Source: Bradyrhizobium sp. sBnM-33
GTDB taxonomy: Bacteria; Pseudomonadota; Alphaproteobacteria; Rhizobiales; Xanthobacteraceae
Reading direction: 5' to 3'
DNA length: 64,000 bases
Assembly (NCBI RefSeq): GCF_032917945.1
Contig: NZ_CP136624.1
Location: forward strand, 7,626,001-7,690,000
The notes under the pieces were generated by a model. It was not told where the DNA came from and made no database searches. It saw only the letters and a list, made by a program, of their open reading frames with translations. The position numbers and the translations under genes were made by a program. Shown in pieces: positions 23,967 to 41,075 of the stretch. Each line of letters starts with the position of its first letter. The first letter of the stretch is position 1.

Positions 23967-24668
23967 CTAGCTCTGTTGATCCGGCTTTGGTTTGCGCAGG
24001 AGATAGGTTCCGTGCAGCGGCGCGTGATAATCGGCCGATTCCAGCGTGAAGCCGATATCGGTCAGCATGCGCTCGATCACCCAACCGAAGGTCGAGTACT
24101 CGTCGCGCATATGGGTGACCACGCCTTCGCGCTGGAAATCGTGATTCTTGATGGTGAAATCGGCCCATTGGTCGACATCGCGCTCGACGCCGTCGGGCAT
24201 GCTGACGAACACGATGTCGCGCAGGTAGAAATTCGCGCCGGGCTTCAGGGCGGCATAGATCCTTGCCAGTGCCACCGCCTTCCAGAAATCGGGCAGGTGA
24301 TGCAGCGTGAATTCGCTGACGATCAAATCGTAGGAGTTCGGCTGGTAGGCAAAGCTCAGCAGGCCGGCCGGCTGAGTGCGGATCGCTACCTTGCGGTCGC
24401 GGGCCTGGATGTTGGCGAGCGCCAGCATCGCCGGCGAAATATCTATTGCGTCGACCTCGGCCCCCATCAACGCCGCTTCGCAGGCCAGTACACCGTTGCC
24501 GCAACCGATATCGGCCACGCGCCAGCCTCGCTGCACGCCAAGCATGGTGAGCGCGGCCCGTGCGCGCTCGTCGCTGTCGTCATGCCGGTCGTAGATCGAG
24601 GCGACCGCCGAATCGAGCCCGAGTCGCCGCCTTTGAGTGTAATACCAGTCACGCGCCAGCATGTTCAC
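23967..24668 (-). CDS. Class I SAM-dependent methyltransferase
   Basis: 233-aa cytoplasmic enzyme. Motif I VADIGCGNGVLACEAA (about 50-65) and acidic motif VDAIDIS (72-78) define the SAM site, and DLIVSEFTLHHLPDF (114-128) is the post-motif region of Methyltransf_11/25. The acceptor is unknown. GTG 24668 overlaps the ilvH stop as GTGA and is my preferred start; ATG 24662 two codons later is the alternative. Its coupling to ilvH is notable. Confidence 0.87.
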   Translation of the reverse strand: MNMLARDWYYTQRRRLGLDSAVASIYDRHDDSDERARAALTMLGVQRGWRVADIGCGNGVLACEAALMGAEVDAIDISPAMLALANIQARDRKVAIRTQPAGLLSFAYQPNSYDLIVSEFTLHHLPDFWKAVALARIYAALKPGANFYLRDIVFVSMPDGVERDVDQWADFTIKNHDFQREGVVTHMRDEYSTFGWVIERMLTDIGFTLESADYHAPLHGTYLLRKPKPDQQS

Positions 24669-25207
24669 ATCCCCTCAGGCCCGCGCCCGATCGCGGCAAC
24701 GCCAGTGCGCGACACCTCGACAAGGCCGAGCGGGCGCATCAGGTCGATAAATTGACTGATCTTCGATGAATTGCCTGTGATCTCGAACACAAAACTCTCG
24801 GTCGTTGCGTCGATCACGCGCGCGCGGAACGCGTCCGCCAACCGCAGCGCCTCGACCCGGCTGTCGCCGCGGCCACGCACCTTCACCATGGCGAGTTCCC
24901 GCTCAATTGAGCGGCCGGTGATGGTCATGTCGACGACGCGGTAGACCGGGATCATGCGGTCGAGTTGATGCTTGATCTGCTCGATCACCGTCGGCGTGCC
25001 TGTCGTGACGATGGTGATGCGCGAGAGATGCTTGTGGCTCTCGGTCTCGGAGACGGTGAGACTGTCGATGTTGTAACCGCGCCCCGAAAAAAGGCCGATC
25101 ACGCGCGCGAGCACGCCGGGCTCGTTCTGCACCAGCACCGACAGCGTGTGGGTCTCGTTGGGGTCGTGGCGATCTTCCAGGAAGTAGGCGGATGCGGGCT
25201 GGTTCAT
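24665..25207 (-). CDS. ilvH: Acetolactate synthase small (regulatory) subunit IlvH
   Basis: 180-aa regulatory subunit of acetohydroxyacid synthase, which binds Val through its N-terminal ACT domain (THTLSVLVQNEPGVLARVIG, then GYNIDSLTVSETE). I start at ATG 25207 (MNQPASAYFLED), with AAGGGGAC 6 to 10 bases upstream; ATG 25231 is possible. It activates IlvI and confers feedback control. The threonine-dehydratase-like gene and two repeats separate it from ilvI. Confidence 0.96.
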   Translation of the reverse strand: MNQPASAYFLEDRHDPNETHTLSVLVQNEPGVLARVIGLFSGRGYNIDSLTVSETESHKHLSRITIVTTGTPTVIEQIKHQLDRMIPVYRVVDMTITGRSIERELAMVKVRGRGDSRVEALRLADAFRARVIDATTESFVFEITGNSSKISQFIDLMRPLGLVEVSRTGVAAIGRGPEGM

Positions 25208-25231
25208 TGTCGTCCCCTTGTCATTCTCCAT

Positions 25232-25329
25232 TGTCAGCCCGCGAAGGCAGGCATCCAGTAATCGCCGGCGCCTGCGATTGACCGCAAGGCCGCGGCGCAC
25301 TGGATCGTCCGGTCAAGCCGGACGATGAC
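25232..25329. repeat. Intergenic palindromic repeat, family C copy 1
   Basis: Contains GGCATCCAGTA at the left and CTGGATCGTCCGGTCAAGCC then GGACGATGAC at the right. Its organisation is the same as copies at 26372-26471 and 30531-30633. Lies in the ilvH 5' region, ending about 25 bases before the dehydratase stop. Confidence 0.75.
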
Positions 25330-25357
25330 ATCAAACACTTGGCTGGTGTTCGTGGCA

Positions 25358-26344
25358 TTACGCCATTGCCCTTTCACCAGTGGCGGCAACCTCCGTCCCG
25401 ACCCATTTGCGGAACAAATCAAAATCGATATTGCCGCCTGACAGGATCAGGCCGACGCGCTTGCCGGCGAGCTTCTGCTTTTCCTGCAGCGCCGCGGCCA
25501 GCGGGGCAGCGCCGGCGCCTTCGGCGAGGTTATGCGTGTCGGTCCAATAGGCGCGGACGGCAGCTGCGACCTCGTCGTCCGTGACCTGCACGATGCGCGC
25601 GGCGCCCTTGCGGATGGTGGCGAATGCGTTCGGATCGGGAATGCGCGTCGCCATGCCGTCCGCCAGCGTGTTGCTGGTTTCGGTGGTCACCACCATGCCG
25701 GCGGCAAACGAGAGCGCGTAGGACGGTGCTTCGGTCGACTGCACGCCGACTATTTCGGTTTTCAGCCCGAGCAGTTCGCGCGCCATGATGCAGCCGGAGA
25801 TGCCCGAGCCCTGCCCGATCGGCACATAGAGAATGTCGAGGTCGGGCGCTGTCCGGAACAGTTCGAGCGCGTAGGTAGCGACGCCGAGCACCAGATCCGG
25901 ATGGAACGAGGGCACCATATGAAGGCCGGCGAACTGGGCACGGCGCTGGGCTTCTTCGGCGGCCGCCTGAAAATCCTCGCCATGCTCGACCAGCTCGGCG
26001 CCGAACGCCCGCATGGCGCGGTTCTTCTCCACCGAATTGCCCTTCGGCACGTAAATCACGGCCGGCACGCGGTGACGGGAAGCCGCGAACGCAAGGCTCT
26101 GGCCGTGATTGCCACGGGTAGCGGAAATGATCCCCGGCGTGTTCGGCCGCTCCCGCTTCAGCCGGTCGAGATAGACCAGCCCACCGCGCACCTTGAACGC
26201 GCCGATCGGCGTGTGGTTCTCGTGTTTGACCACAACGCGCGTCCCTAGCCGCTCGGCAAGGAGCGGCCACGCGTGCGCCGGCGTCGGCGGCACCGCCTGC
26301 CCCACGATTTCGTGCGCACGTTCGAGCTCGGCGAGGTTAAACAT
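25358..26344 (-). CDS. Threonine dehydratase-like PLP enzyme (short, no regulatory domain)
   Basis: 328-aa fold-type II PLP enzyme. The PLP lysine is K51 in IGAFKVRGG, the phosphate loop region is SGISG and the ring-nitrogen side motif is SGGNID. Length corresponds to the catabolic/serine-threonine dehydratase type, without the ACT-like allosteric domain of IlvA. It would give 2-oxobutyrate from threonine, a substrate for IlvIH in Ile synthesis, which fits its position between ilvI and ilvH. Other activities (serine racemase/dehydratase, hydroxyaspartate dehydratase) cannot be excluded. Confidence 0.85.
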   Translation of the reverse strand: MFNLAELERAHEIVGQAVPPTPAHAWPLLAERLGTRVVVKHENHTPIGAFKVRGGLVYLDRLKRERPNTPGIISATRGNHGQSLAFAASRHRVPAVIYVPKGNSVEKNRAMRAFGAELVEHGEDFQAAAEEAQRRAQFAGLHMVPSFHPDLVLGVATYALELFRTAPDLDILYVPIGQGSGISGCIMARELLGLKTEIVGVQSTEAPSYALSFAAGMVVTTETSNTLADGMATRIPDPNAFATIRKGAARIVQVTDDEVAAAVRAYWTDTHNLAEGAGAAPLAAALQEKQKLAGKRVGLILSGGNIDFDLFRKWVGTEVAATGERAMA

Positions 26345-26371
26345 TTTGACTTCCCGATCCTCTCGCTTGCT

Positions 26372-26471
26372 CGTCATCCCCGCGAAGGCGGGGATCCAGT
26401 ATTCCAGAGACGCCCAAGCACAACCGAGACGCCTCGGCGTACTGGATCGCCCGGTCAAGCCGGGCGATGAC
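26372..26471. repeat. Intergenic palindromic repeat, family C copy 2
   Basis: Begins CGTCATCCCCGCGAAGGCGG then GGATCCAGTATTCCAGAGACG, and ends CTGGATCGCCCGGTCAAGCC, GGGCGATGAC. It has the same plan as copies 1 and 3 and lies between ilvI and the dehydratase gene. Confidence 0.8.
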
Positions 26472-26500
26472 AATGGAATTTCTGTCTCGCATCCTCACAC

Positions 26501-28276
26501 TCACACCAGCGCCTTGCCGCCGGCAAACGCCGCGGCGGTGGCTTCGTCAGTCGCTTCCACCGGCAGCAGCATTTCGTTGTGCGCCTTGCCGGACGGAATC
26601 ATCGGGAAGCAGTTTTCCAGCGCGGCGACGCGGCAATCGAACAGCACCGGACGCTTGACCTTGATCATCTCCTTGAGCGCGCCGTCGAGATCGCCAGGCT
26701 TGATCGCCTGGATGCCGACGCATCCGAAGGCGTCCGCGAGCTTGACGAAATCCGGCAGCGCTTCCGAATAGGAATGCGACAGCCGGTTGCCATGCAGGAG
26801 CTGCTGCCACTGCCGCACCATGCCCATGTACTGGTTGTTCAGGATGAAGATCTTGATCGGCAGTTCAAACTGAACCGCCGTCGACATCTCCTGCATCGTC
26901 ATCTGCACCGAGGCGTCGCCGGCAATGTCGATCACGAGGCTGTCAGGGTGCGCGACCTGCACGCCGAGCGCTGCCGGCAGGCCGTAGCCCATGGTGCCGA
27001 GACCGCCCGACGTCATCCAGCGATGCGGCTCCTCAAAACCGAAGAACTGCGCCGCCCACATCTGATGCTGGCCGACTTCGGTCGTGATGTAGGTGTCATG
27101 GCCGCGCGTCGCCTCGAACAGCTTCTGAATGGCGTATTGCGGCAGGATGACGTCGTTGCTCTTCTTGTAGGCGAGCGAATTGCGCGCACGCCAGGTGGCG
27201 ATCTCCTGCCACCAGCTCTTGATGTCGGGCTTCTTAGCCTCCGCCTTGAACACCTGCAGCAGGTCGCCGAGCACATTGCCGGCGTCGCCGATGATCGGCA
27301 CGTCGACGCGGATGTTCTTGTTGATCGAGGACGGATCGATATCAATGTGGATCTTCTTCGAGCCCGGCGAGAACGCGTCGGTGCGGCCTGTGATGCGGTC
27401 GTCGAAGCGCGCGCCGACGCACAGCATGACGTCGCAACCATGCATCGTCATGTTGGCCTCGTAGGTGCCGTGCATGCCGAGCATGCCGAGCCAGTTTTTG
27501 CCGGTCGCCGGGTAAGCGCCGAGCCCCATCAGGGTCGAGGTGATCGGAAAGCCTGTGACCTCGACGAGCTCGCGCAACAGCTTCGACGCCTCGGGTCCGG
27601 AATTGATGACGCCGCCGCCGGAATAGATCACCGGGCGCTTTGCGGCAGCCAATAGCGCCACCGCTTTTCGGATCTGTGCCGCATCGCCTTTCACTCGCGG
27701 GGTATAGGACACATGCACGTCGGACTTGCGCGGCGGATGATAGGTGCCGACCGCAAACTGCACGTCCTTGGGCACGTCGACCACGACGGGTCCGGGACGG
27801 CCCGTGGTCGCGACATAGAACGCCTCGTGCAGCACCTTGGCCAGATCGTTGACGTCGCGCACCAGCCAGTTGTGCTTGGTGCAGGGACGGGTGATGCCGA
27901 CAGTGTCGCATTCCTGGAACGCGTCGTTGCCGATCAGATGGGTGGGGACCTGGCCGGTGATGCACACCAGCGGGATCGAATCCATCAGCGCGTCCGTCAG
28001 CGGCGTCACCATGTTGGTGGCGCCTGGGCCTGACGTCACCAGCACCACGCCCGGCTTGCCGGTCGAGCGCGCGTAGCCCTCGGCCGCATGGCCGGCGCCC
28101 TGCTCGTGCCGCACCAGGATGTGCTCGACGTCGCTCTGCTGGAAAATTTCGTCGTAGATCGGAAGCACCGCGCCGCCGGGATAGCCGAAGATGTGCTGGA
28201 CGCCATGATCGATGAGCGCGCGCACGATCATCGCGGCGCCGGTCATCTGATTGGGGTCGTTGCTCTTGTCGGTCAT
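26501..28276 (-). CDS. ilvI: Acetolactate (acetohydroxyacid) synthase large subunit IlvI/IlvB
   Basis: 591-aa ThDP- and FAD-dependent catalytic subunit of AHAS, which condenses pyruvate with pyruvate or 2-oxobutyrate, the first common step of Val/Leu/Ile synthesis. The N-terminal segment HIFGYPGGAVLPIYDEIF, the central FAD region GLGAYPATGKNWLGMLGMHG and the ThDP motif GDASVQMTMQE followed by NNQYMGMVRQW are all present. It is preceded by a leader-peptide attenuator, so expression should respond to branched-chain aminoacyl-tRNA supply. Confidence 0.97.
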   Translation of the reverse strand: MTDKSNDPNQMTGAAMIVRALIDHGVQHIFGYPGGAVLPIYDEIFQQSDVEHILVRHEQGAGHAAEGYARSTGKPGVVLVTSGPGATNMVTPLTDALMDSIPLVCITGQVPTHLIGNDAFQECDTVGITRPCTKHNWLVRDVNDLAKVLHEAFYVATTGRPGPVVVDVPKDVQFAVGTYHPPRKSDVHVSYTPRVKGDAAQIRKAVALLAAAKRPVIYSGGGVINSGPEASKLLRELVEVTGFPITSTLMGLGAYPATGKNWLGMLGMHGTYEANMTMHGCDVMLCVGARFDDRITGRTDAFSPGSKKIHIDIDPSSINKNIRVDVPIIGDAGNVLGDLLQVFKAEAKKPDIKSWWQEIATWRARNSLAYKKSNDVILPQYAIQKLFEATRGHDTYITTEVGQHQMWAAQFFGFEEPHRWMTSGGLGTMGYGLPAALGVQVAHPDSLVIDIAGDASVQMTMQEMSTAVQFELPIKIFILNNQYMGMVRQWQQLLHGNRLSHSYSEALPDFVKLADAFGCVGIQAIKPGDLDGALKEMIKVKRPVLFDCRVAALENCFPMIPSGKAHNEMLLPVEATDEATAAAFAGGKALV

Positions 28277-28333: not shown

Positions 28334-28356
28334 TAAAAAAGGGCCCGAGAGGCCCC
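28334..28356 (-). terminator. Attenuator terminator of the ilvI leader
   Basis: On the minus strand GGGGCCTCTCGGGCCC (28356-28341) forms a 5-bp G/C stem with a TCTCG loop, followed directly by TTTTTTATTT (28340 onward). It is about 58 bases before the ilvI start and right after the leader peptide and its alternative stem, the position of an intrinsic attenuator terminator. Confidence 0.85.
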
Positions 28357-28358
28357 AT

Positions 28359-28406
28359 GCACACCGCCTGAATTTGGATGGCCGCTAGCCATCCCCGGCG
28401 GTGTGC
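28359..28406 (-). promoter_or_regulatory. ilvI leader pause/antiterminator stem
   Basis: GCACACCGCC (28406-28397, minus strand) and GGCGGTGTGC (28368-28359) are perfect inverted arms. Inside them GGATGGC and GCCATCC form a second stem around the leader stop codon region. The proximal arm overlaps codons of the leader peptide, so ribosome position would decide whether the stem forms. The distal arm ends two bases before the terminator hairpin. Confidence 0.75.
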
Positions 28407-28450
28407 CTGGGTACGACGACGATAAGGAGTTTGGTAATAATATTACGCAT
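28385..28450 (-). CDS. ilvL: ilv operon leader peptide
   Basis: A 21-codon frame starting at ATG 28450 and ending TAG at 28385. The product begins MRNIITKLLIVVVP: of residues 4-13, three are Ile, two Leu and three Val, all end products of the pathway. Such a run of regulatory codons just ahead of overlapping stems and a U-tract terminator is the hallmark of translation-coupled attenuation. No strong Shine-Dalgarno sequence is seen. It is too short for standard gene callers. Confidence 0.85.
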   Translation of the reverse strand: MRNIITKLLIVVVPRHTAGDG

Positions 28451-28601
28451 TTTGCGGCTCGGACTTCCCAAAGGTTGCGCGGTTATAGCTGCCGTACCCC
28501 GGAAGTCAAGGGAAGCACGCTTTCGGCGCGATTTGGGCAGTGTAGCGGTGTTCCGGGCATTCGGCGAGGGGGAATTTTATGCGTGCAGCCATGCGGGAGG
28601 C

Positions 28602-40174: not shown

Positions 40175-40579
40175 GGATATCTCTCCTCCCCAAGACAGGC
40201 TTCTCGCCCGTTTGCTTGGATAACCTGGATACTTGTCCCGGAAACTGCCTAGCGACTTTCCTCAGACAACGCCAGCAAAACCCAAACCACTGCAGCGCCG
40301 ACGGTAAATGGAGAAGCCGCCTTCAGACCCTGTAAAGGGCAGATCGCAACTTTTGCGGCTGGCGCGCTGCAGCACACGCGAGCGAACTGCTAGTCACGTT
40401 ACGAACCACACGTTCGGCCCCGGGGGCGAACGCTGGGATGGCGGCGAACTGCGCATAATTTATGCAAGCGTGTGAACGGCGCATTTTGAAATCGTCGAAT
40501 CCGTGGCGAAACCGCAACTGGGCGACAGCAAACCGAAAGTGAGGTGCCATGTTCCCCTCCCGTTCGGCGCCTTTGGCCC
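40175..40579. other. Intergenic stretch upstream of ssrA, no convincing gene
   Basis: About 400 bases. Short frames on both strands lack family features. It should contain the tctB promoter. Nothing else was recognised. Confidence 0.5.
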
Positions 40580-40608
40580 TGTCTTTCTCCGAACCTGCAC
40601 CCTATATT
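40580..40608 (+). promoter_or_regulatory. Candidate ssrA promoter
   Basis: A -10-like TATATT (40603-40608) lies 17 bases after TGTCTT (40580-40585), a weak -35. Transcription would start near 40615, exactly at a UUCG-capped hairpin (GCCGG-TTCG-CCGGC, 40615-40628). Confidence 0.4.
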
Positions 40609-40614
40609 GGGAGT

Positions 40615-40694
40615 GCCGGTTCGCCGGCTATGGAAATAAATGACCGTCGCAATAAACCATTCGGACCCGGGGGCAGTACCCGGCGCCTCCACCC
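40615..40694 (+). ncRNA. ssrA: tmRNA acceptor piece (two-piece, permuted ssrA)
   Basis: Upstream half of a circularly permuted tmRNA gene. It holds the T-stem CCGGG (40667-40671) / CCCGG (40679-40683) with a 7-base loop, the 3' acceptor strand CGCCTCC (40684-40690) and the discriminator A (40691). The acceptor strand pairs over seven bases with GGGGGCG at 40724-40730, including the hallmark G3-U70 pair for alanyl-tRNA synthetase. The next bases are CCC, not CCA, so the final A is probably added after processing. The 5' end is approximate. Confidence 0.85.
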
Positions 40695-40723
40695 AAGCCC
40701 ACCCTGCCGTGGTGGGTTTCGGC

Positions 40724-40930
40724 GGGGGCGAACCAGGATCGACGAGGGCGTAAAGGACGAGTTTTTTCCCGGTATTGTTCCGCCGTTATCGGGCTACGCA
40801 ATAGTTGCAAACGACAACTATGCTCCGGTTGCTCAGGCTGCGTAACGCAGTTTGAAAGACCGATCTAAAGTCCTAGCGGGTTAAGCTCCGCTAGGCGGGG
40901 TTCGGAGGCACCTGGCAACAGAAGCCTCCA
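40724..40930 (+). ncRNA. ssrA: tmRNA coding piece (two-piece, permuted ssrA)
   Basis: Downstream half. It begins GGGGGCG (acceptor stem 5' strand), then AACCAGGATCGACG, the tRNA-like D-arm region. The tag reading frame is at 40807-40845. Downstream are helices CCTAGCGG/CCGCTAGG (about 40872-40895) and GGAGGC/GCCTCC (40904-40909/40924-40929), then a TTAATTCTTTTC tail. The 30-base spacer 40694-40723 between the pieces is the intervening segment that processing removes. The RNA rescues stalled ribosomes in trans-translation. Confidence 0.92.
40807..40845 (+). CDS. tmRNA proteolysis tag ANDNYAPVAQAA
   Basis: Twelve codons GCA AAC GAC ... GCT GCG followed by TAA. The peptide ANDNYAPVAQAA has the classical AND start and the AA end recognised by ClpXP. 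It is read from tmRNA, so it has no own start codon. The adaptor SspB that delivers tagged proteins is encoded 230 bases downstream. Confidence 0.95.
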   Translation, partial: ANDNYAPVAQAA

Positions 40931-41075
40931 CTTAATTCTTTTCATTTCCGGCCGACGGAGCCGTTGGTGCAAATTCGATCCGTCGCGCCTGCTGACCTGC
41001 GGCTCCCGCCGGGGTAGCATGGGGGCAAAGGGGCGAGTCGGGAGACCGGCGGCCATAAAACCTGACAGGACGACC

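Follow-up and report, generated by a model that had tools for sequence, protein, structure and literature searches.

The ilvI gene of Bradyrhizobium sp. sBnM-33 is very probably controlled by a ribosome-dependent transcription attenuator, encoded on the minus strand of the window (i.e. the whole stretch of 64,000 nucleotides that was analysed). A leader frame with a run of isoleucine, leucine and valine codons, a typical spacing between these codons and the paired elements, a covarying stem and an intrinsic terminator were all observed at a position 5' of ilvI, and together they provide the acetolactate synthase of Bradyrhizobium with a testable control mechanism.

Architecture of the ilvI leader

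The leader frame MRNIITKLLIVVVPRHTAGDG was read directly from the minus strand (28385..28450, stop included): it comprises 21 codons, begins with the ATG at 28450, is closed by the stop codon TAG (28387-28385) and carries the control codons Ile4, Ile5, Leu8, Leu9, Ile10 and Val11-13. The initial annotation had described an Ile/Leu/Val-rich frame of this length, overlapping perfect 10-bp arms, an inner stem at the leader stop and a G/C terminator with six U residues, and each of these elements was recovered at the coordinates given there (all on the minus strand). Arm A (GCACACCGCC, 28406-28397), the 5' half of the outer stem and segment 1 in the favoured model, is the exact 10-bp reverse complement of arm A' (GGCGGTGTGC, 28368-28359), the 3' half; the former is supported by complementarity and covariation, the latter by sequence, fold and covariation. 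The leader stop codon lies inside a predicted inner hairpin (28376..28394, halves 28394-28387 and 28383-28376), and the intrinsic terminator (28335..28356) consists of the hairpin GGGGCCTCTCGGGCCC (28356-28341) followed by six T residues (28340-28335). It was also found independently by a terminator scan, which reported 2 sites in the scanned stretch (0.7 expected), and the end of its U-run is separated by 58 nt from the ilvI ATG (28276). A possible extension of the outer stem on the same strand, formed by CCCA (28411-28408) and TGGG (28357-28354), would span 28354..28411 and overlap the 5' arm of the terminator. As a whole, the 117-nt leader stretch folds with -47.1 kcal/mol, as compared to -35.2 kcal/mol (sd 3.6) in dinucleotide shuffles (z -3.3; 1 of 200 shuffles matched or surpassed its stability).

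Further out, TTTGGGAA (28472-28465), part of a conserved block 5' of the leader, is the exact complement of TTCCCAAA (28332-28325, just 3' of the U-run), a pairing that many relatives in the genus retain with G-U pairs, that others have lost, and that could fold the entire leader shut.

A promoter-like arrangement of TTGACT (28509-28504), 16 nt and TATAAC (28487-28482) was read directly on the minus strand (28482..28509), being unlisted by the consensus promoter scan, which demands a T at the final -10 position; from these boxes the leader transcript is predicted to start about 25 nt 5' of the leader ATG. Of 53 genera, 47 have TTGAC within the interval from 130 to 55 nt 5' of the leader stop (5.3% of shuffles), and a loosely defined -10 box follows in 37 of the 53, with the shuffle control covering the TTGAC part only. 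Given this box 5' of the frame, transcription probably begins ahead of the leader, and not downstream of 28385, the placement that the initial annotation had named as evidence against its proposal.

The minus-strand gene order is miaA, leader, ilvI, a threonine dehydratase gene and ilvH. The regulated gene ilvI (26501..28276) encodes the large subunit of acetolactate synthase (NCBIfam NF006581, 1191.9 bits, cut-off 974), while ilvH (24665..25300) encodes its small subunit (NF008864, 230.4 bits, cut-off 119) and probably belongs to the same operon, with a predicted co-transcription. The threonine dehydratase gene (NF004771, 540 bits, cut-off 317), placed between the two (within 24665-28276), may also be under the control of the attenuator, and would contribute a step towards isoleucine. 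Elsewhere in the window (40576-40932) we noted an Alphaproteobacterial permuted tmRNA gene (305.9 bits).

Conservation of the leader

DNA searches recovered the leader region in all 36 genus genomes (own genome included) and in none of 24 genomes from other families of the order. The frame was readable in 30 of 30 loci from the first genus search and in 59 of 60 once the 30 loci of the second were added (the 60 include four repeated genomes, the frame-bearing loci represent 55 genomes, and the sixtieth locus, L121, is a different match). Among the 27 distinct 21-codon versions found within the genus, substitutions in codons 2, 3, 7 and 8 are always synonymous, I4 and I5 are invariably written as ATT and V13 as GTA (27 of 27), and versions longer or shorter by one codon remain in frame. 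Within the coding sequence of ilvI in the window, by comparison, none of the 51 Val codons is GTA and 5 of the 36 Ile codons are ATT. In two relatives (L012 of G031 and L020 of G019) a palindromic repeat-like insert of about 100 bases lies directly 3' of the ilvI terminator.

Outside the genus the codon run persists in an otherwise changing peptide. Over 80 loci, 79 from other genera plus the window itself, the richest six-codon stretch of a short frame held on average 4.46 Ile/Leu/Val codons versus 1.19 in shuffles, with at least three such codons in 80 of 80 loci (18% of shuffles) and at least four in 77 of 80 (5%); leader frames were chosen partly by their Ile/Leu/Val content and shuffles were searched likewise, but the stretch is set by the chosen frame. 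In these leaders Val was encoded by GTA in 94 of 194 cases, Leu by CTT in 60 of 131 and Ile by ATT in 76 of 129; the use of GTA, absent from ilvI of the window, is an unusual codon choice that favours the attenuator. Apart from the run and an Arg three residues later (58 of 79 loci), the leader peptide varies among genera.

For covariation we aligned 53 loci, each representing a different genus label (A1); the count covered the outer stem and the terminator, since indels break the alignment at the inner hairpin. In the outer stem and terminator, 71 cells had changed on both sides, in comparison with 23.6 (sd 5.0) in shuffles, a level that related sequences can exceed without structure; free of this weakness is the slid-partner control, in which paired cells (terminator helix included) dropped from 92.7% over the 53 genera to 59.5% or less. 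One pair of the outer stem is A-U in 25, G-C in 16 and G-U in 8 of the 53 genera, and the covariation of the first stem (1:2), near the control codons, is backed by shuffles and slides alike. The conserved frame, the codon run and the covarying outer stem thus support the initial annotation in its central claim of a leader-peptide attenuator 5' of ilvI.

At E<=1e-6, a covariance model built from A1 (R1, trained on the order with the window included) matched 270 of 397 order genomes, representing 94 of 141 genera, and ilvI was present in all 30 loci given from this search (a count that leaves aside the distance to the gene). Run over the entire own genome at E<=0.1, R1 returned the ilvI leader alone. 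At class level it found 35 of 240 genomes at E<=0.1, mostly as weak matches; the 30 loci given (L201-L230) had ilvI in five cases (the window and two others of the same order included) and a pump gene in one. In two genomes of one genus (L283 of G654, L284 of G608) ilvI is duplicated in tandem around ilvH, and both copies have an attenuator leader of their own.

Relationship to the Rfam family Atu_C8

The leader also resembles Rfam family RF02502 (Atu_C8), which was reportedly derived from deep sequencing of Agrobacterium. The two share the same layout (a two-arm stem, an inner hairpin and a terminator) and the same place 5' of ilvI, and they differ in that RF02502 is classed by Rfam as an sRNA rather than an attenuator, and in that the window copy scores below the family cut-off (29.7 bits, E 3.9e-4; gathering cut-off 50 bits). 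By Rfam's rule the window copy is therefore a relative of the family and not a member of it, and none of the 117 genus genomes reaches the cut-off.

Matches to RF02502 at E<=0.1 were obtained in 95 of 150 order genomes (22 above the cut-off), at loose thresholds that also gave matches in 1 of 14 control genomes (E. coli, E<=0.1) and in 5 of 14 in a second search. DNA was fetched for 89 of the 105 listed order matches (the other 16 all score below 30 bits and include two known ilvI leaders, those of the window and of G021), and 81 of the 89 sit 2-143 nt 5' of ilvI, while six of the remaining eight resemble unrelated terminators. Above the cut-off, the match lies directly 5' of ilvI in 21 of 22 order genomes, the exception (G161) being placed 5' of an MFS gene. 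A lack of conservation among relatives, which the initial annotation had named beforehand as refuting its proposal, is thus not what was observed: the frame is kept within the genus, the position 5' of ilvI within the order, and the outer stem covaries. Among the 20 fetched secondary matches in the genus, 18 had no leader layout and were taken as chance, the other two being the leader of an MFS gene and an ilvI leader; in G003 a chance match outranks the ilvI leader (38.2 versus 28.9 bits).

In our reading, the 'Rhizobiales sRNA' Atu_C8 of Rfam is the terminated ilvI leader, i.e. the ilvI attenuator, which would reassign an sRNA family as an amino-acid attenuator. The consulted parts of the open-licence PMC literature (whose scope leaves out most subscription papers) did not name Atu_C8 as an ilvI attenuator.

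Proposed switch and alternative explanations

Leader translation, ribosome stalling and readthrough are the predicted steps of the favoured model. A ribosome would translate the leader frame and, given ample charged Ile, Leu and Val tRNA, would reach the stop within the inner hairpin and depart; A would then pair with A', the 5' arm of the terminator would stay free and RNA polymerase would halt at the U-run. A shortage of charged tRNA would stall the ribosome on the Ile/Leu/Val run, and with the last Val codon in the A site its front edge would come to rest near the end of arm A; A:A' pairing would thereby be blocked and the freed strands would compete for the terminator arm, allowing readthrough into ilvI.

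Eight codons in the window, and 8 or 9 in 56 of the 79 loci from other genera, lie between the last codon of the run and the stop, and the median position of arm A is -22 to -13 relative to the leader stop. As a ribosome waiting at the last codon of the run usually covers the RNA down to about -14, arm A fits segment 1 of a classical attenuator; with this footprint, a ribosome having V13 in the A site covers seven of the ten arm A bases in the window and leaves three free. Such a spacing suggests a role for the last Val codons. The same model is opposed by these three free bases, by stalls at Ile4, Ile5, Leu8 or Leu9, which leave arm A of the window uncovered, by the full-length RNA, in which the terminator dominates at nearly all ribosome positions, and by the score of the window copy below the RF02502 cut-off.

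When the ribosome edge was moved along the leader in silico, the formation of A:A' left the terminator 5' arm 0.24 paired, as opposed to 0.58 in shuffles. With arm A covered the terminator arm was 0.545 paired (shuffles 0.555), giving no antiterminator above chance over the 53 genera, and a ribosome placed at the stop gave 0.49, not clearly lower than with arm A covered. Pairing of A' with the terminator arm was weaker than in shuffles (-3.6 versus -5.6 kcal/mol, mean z +0.9). A conserved 2:3 antiterminator, sought by means of the moving ribosome edge, partner profiles and shuffles, did not rise above chance with any of these approaches, and we therefore claim none; such foldings describe an equilibrium and cannot settle a kinetic switch.

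The same elements might be wired in the opposite sense, with A:A' (extended by CCCA:TGGG in Bradyrhizobium) itself acting as the antiterminator. A ribosome held at Ile4, Ile5 or Leu8 would then leave A free and A:A' would invade the terminator, whereas a ribosome at the stop would cover A and permit termination, so that a shortage of Ile or Leu, and not of Val, would open the gene. In agreement with this, a ribosome edge before 28411 gives a lowest-energy fold with the extended stem and a shortened terminator, and the mean terminator probability over 30 loci (29 from the genus and one family neighbour; L007, L009 and L010, whose terminators are visible in the alignment and were missed by the terminator finder, lie outside the count) rises from about 0.70 with the edge at least 36 nt before the stop to 0.97 at -21. 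Yet the alternative folds tie at -45.6 kcal/mol, the terminator probability is 0.95-0.97 at every edge in 80 loci outside the genus group, and the placement of the last Ile/Leu/Val codon suits the covering of arm A, not its sparing; the CCCA:TGGG extension was seen in Bradyrhizobium, and in other genera 0-6 nt (10th-90th percentile) separate A' from the terminator. We consider this opposite wiring unlikely. The two switches should be separable by their control codons, as the late Val codons ought to count in the favoured one and the early Ile and Leu codons in the other; the proposal of the initial annotation that starvation for any one of the three amino acids would open ilvI may therefore not hold.

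It could also be that the terminated RNA or the leader peptide acts in trans, with the terminator serving mainly to make an sRNA, a role compatible with attenuation that we regard as quite improbable. It draws on the filing of the related RF02502 as an sRNA and on the trans activity reported for the trp leader peTrpL of S. meliloti (PMC7298713); the position of 81 of the 89 fetched RF02502 matches directly 5' of ilvI speaks against it, as does a peptide that differs across genera outside the Ile/Leu/Val run and the Arg three residues on (58 of 79). Finally, with miaA upstream on the same strand, the hairpin might be a plain transcription terminator of that gene, accompanied by a chance frame and devoid of regulatory function. 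This is hardly credible: the frame survives synonymous substitutions as well as the gain or loss of entire codons, its run of Ile, Leu and Val codons far surpasses that of shuffles, and the leader is preceded by a promoter box that is conserved.

Comparison with known attenuators

In the attenuators of the enterobacterial trp, ilvGMEDA and ilvBN operons the leader stop is situated between the two arms. The window leader has the same arrangement, and a ribosome held at the end of its control codons would, as in trp, sit over the first arm; the leader differs in being without a 2:3 antiterminator above chance, and it is shorter than the ilvGMEDA leader.

Within the Alphaproteobacteria, an ilvL leader 5' of ilvIH has been described as acting by attenuation in Caulobacter (PMC4117421), and for S. 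meliloti both an 'ilvIH cis regulatory' element, marked as absent from Rfam (PMC2573895), and an ilvB leader peptide (PMC1273637) have been attributed to Vitreschak et al. 2004. According to the consulted portions of these papers, such systems share a short frame of branched-chain codons and a terminator 5' of acetolactate synthase genes; the likeness is one of description, and those portions name neither Bradyrhizobium nor these coordinates. As ilv attenuation is already in print for the class, the window leader represents a further case of a known mechanism. The uORF of Corynebacterium ilvB-II (PMC10272879) is likewise a conserved short upstream frame tied to ilv operon control, in another phylum, the likeness again being one of description that does not extend to structures.

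A possible second regulon

A second RF02502 match in the own genome (30.2 bits), located outside the window (G000:C1:9145135-9145243; L061, L182), contains a leader frame, MTIATVVVGRWRMDR followed by a stop codon, and a terminator directly 5' of a gene resembling Bcr/CflA MFS transporters. This pump copy has a stop within its match, while an intact relative (P0001) scores 217.1 bits against the NCBIfam Bcr/CflA cut-off of 200.9. Within the genus the pump is rare (3 of 117 genomes at E<=1e-60).

Among 31 pump homologues with at least 43% identity, a leader frame and terminator (judged by reading the sequence) lie directly 5' of the gene in 22, are absent from eight and are cut by a contig end in one (pump-leader loci L061, L182, L160, L171-L179, L231-L252, L286-L311 and L317). 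R1, trained on no pump leader, scored ten of the 22 at 53-70 bits, eight at 19-29 and that of G168 at 27.4; of the other three, one reached E 0.13 and two gave no match. The eight leaderless loci yielded one weak match (E 0.08), and no match at E<=0.1 was obtained in 20 control pumps of 33-40% identity. Eleven pump leaders, among 20 pump loci given, were gathered by RF02502 at 75-117 bits, one of them (L201) in a genome from another order of the class.

A set of named genomes (Devosia, Pelagibacterium, Roseibium, Nisaea, Kiloniellaceae and others), which overlaps the first (e.g. P. xiamenense), comprised 31 pump loci, of which three were left out (one partial, two distant); by our reading of the sequences, the leader was present in 22 of the remaining 28, ambiguous in two and lacking in four (two of these from Betaproteobacteria). 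R1 matched 17 loci of the full set of 31 at E<=0.01. Valine is more prominent in the pump leaders: it accounts for 75 of 109 Ile/Leu/Val residues in 21 pump leaders versus 198 of 468 in 82 ilvI leaders, and VVV occurs in 14 of 21 versus 11 of 82.

We tentatively suggest that one RNA switch serves two regulons, in an Ile/Leu/Val version 5' of ilvI and a mainly valine version 5' of a Bcr/CflA-type MFS efflux pump across Alphaproteobacteria; a lack of valine or of charged valyl-tRNA would then lead to synthesis of the pump. On the present data this reading is possible, and rather doubtful than likely. Were it true, an inhibitor of the pathway would be sensed through starvation, with the target enzyme and an exporter both raised, and by hypothesis the pump would answer a compound that causes valine shortage. 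If confirmed, the link would tie the sensing of amino-acid starvation to efflux. The identity with Atu_C8 and the possible pump regulon are what raise the leader above a well-conserved example of a known mechanism. An attenuator 5' of a Bcr/CflA pump did not appear in the portions consulted of the open-licence PMC literature, to which most subscription papers do not belong. One Agrobacterium plasmid carries a pump homologue annotated as a multidrug efflux MFS transporter.
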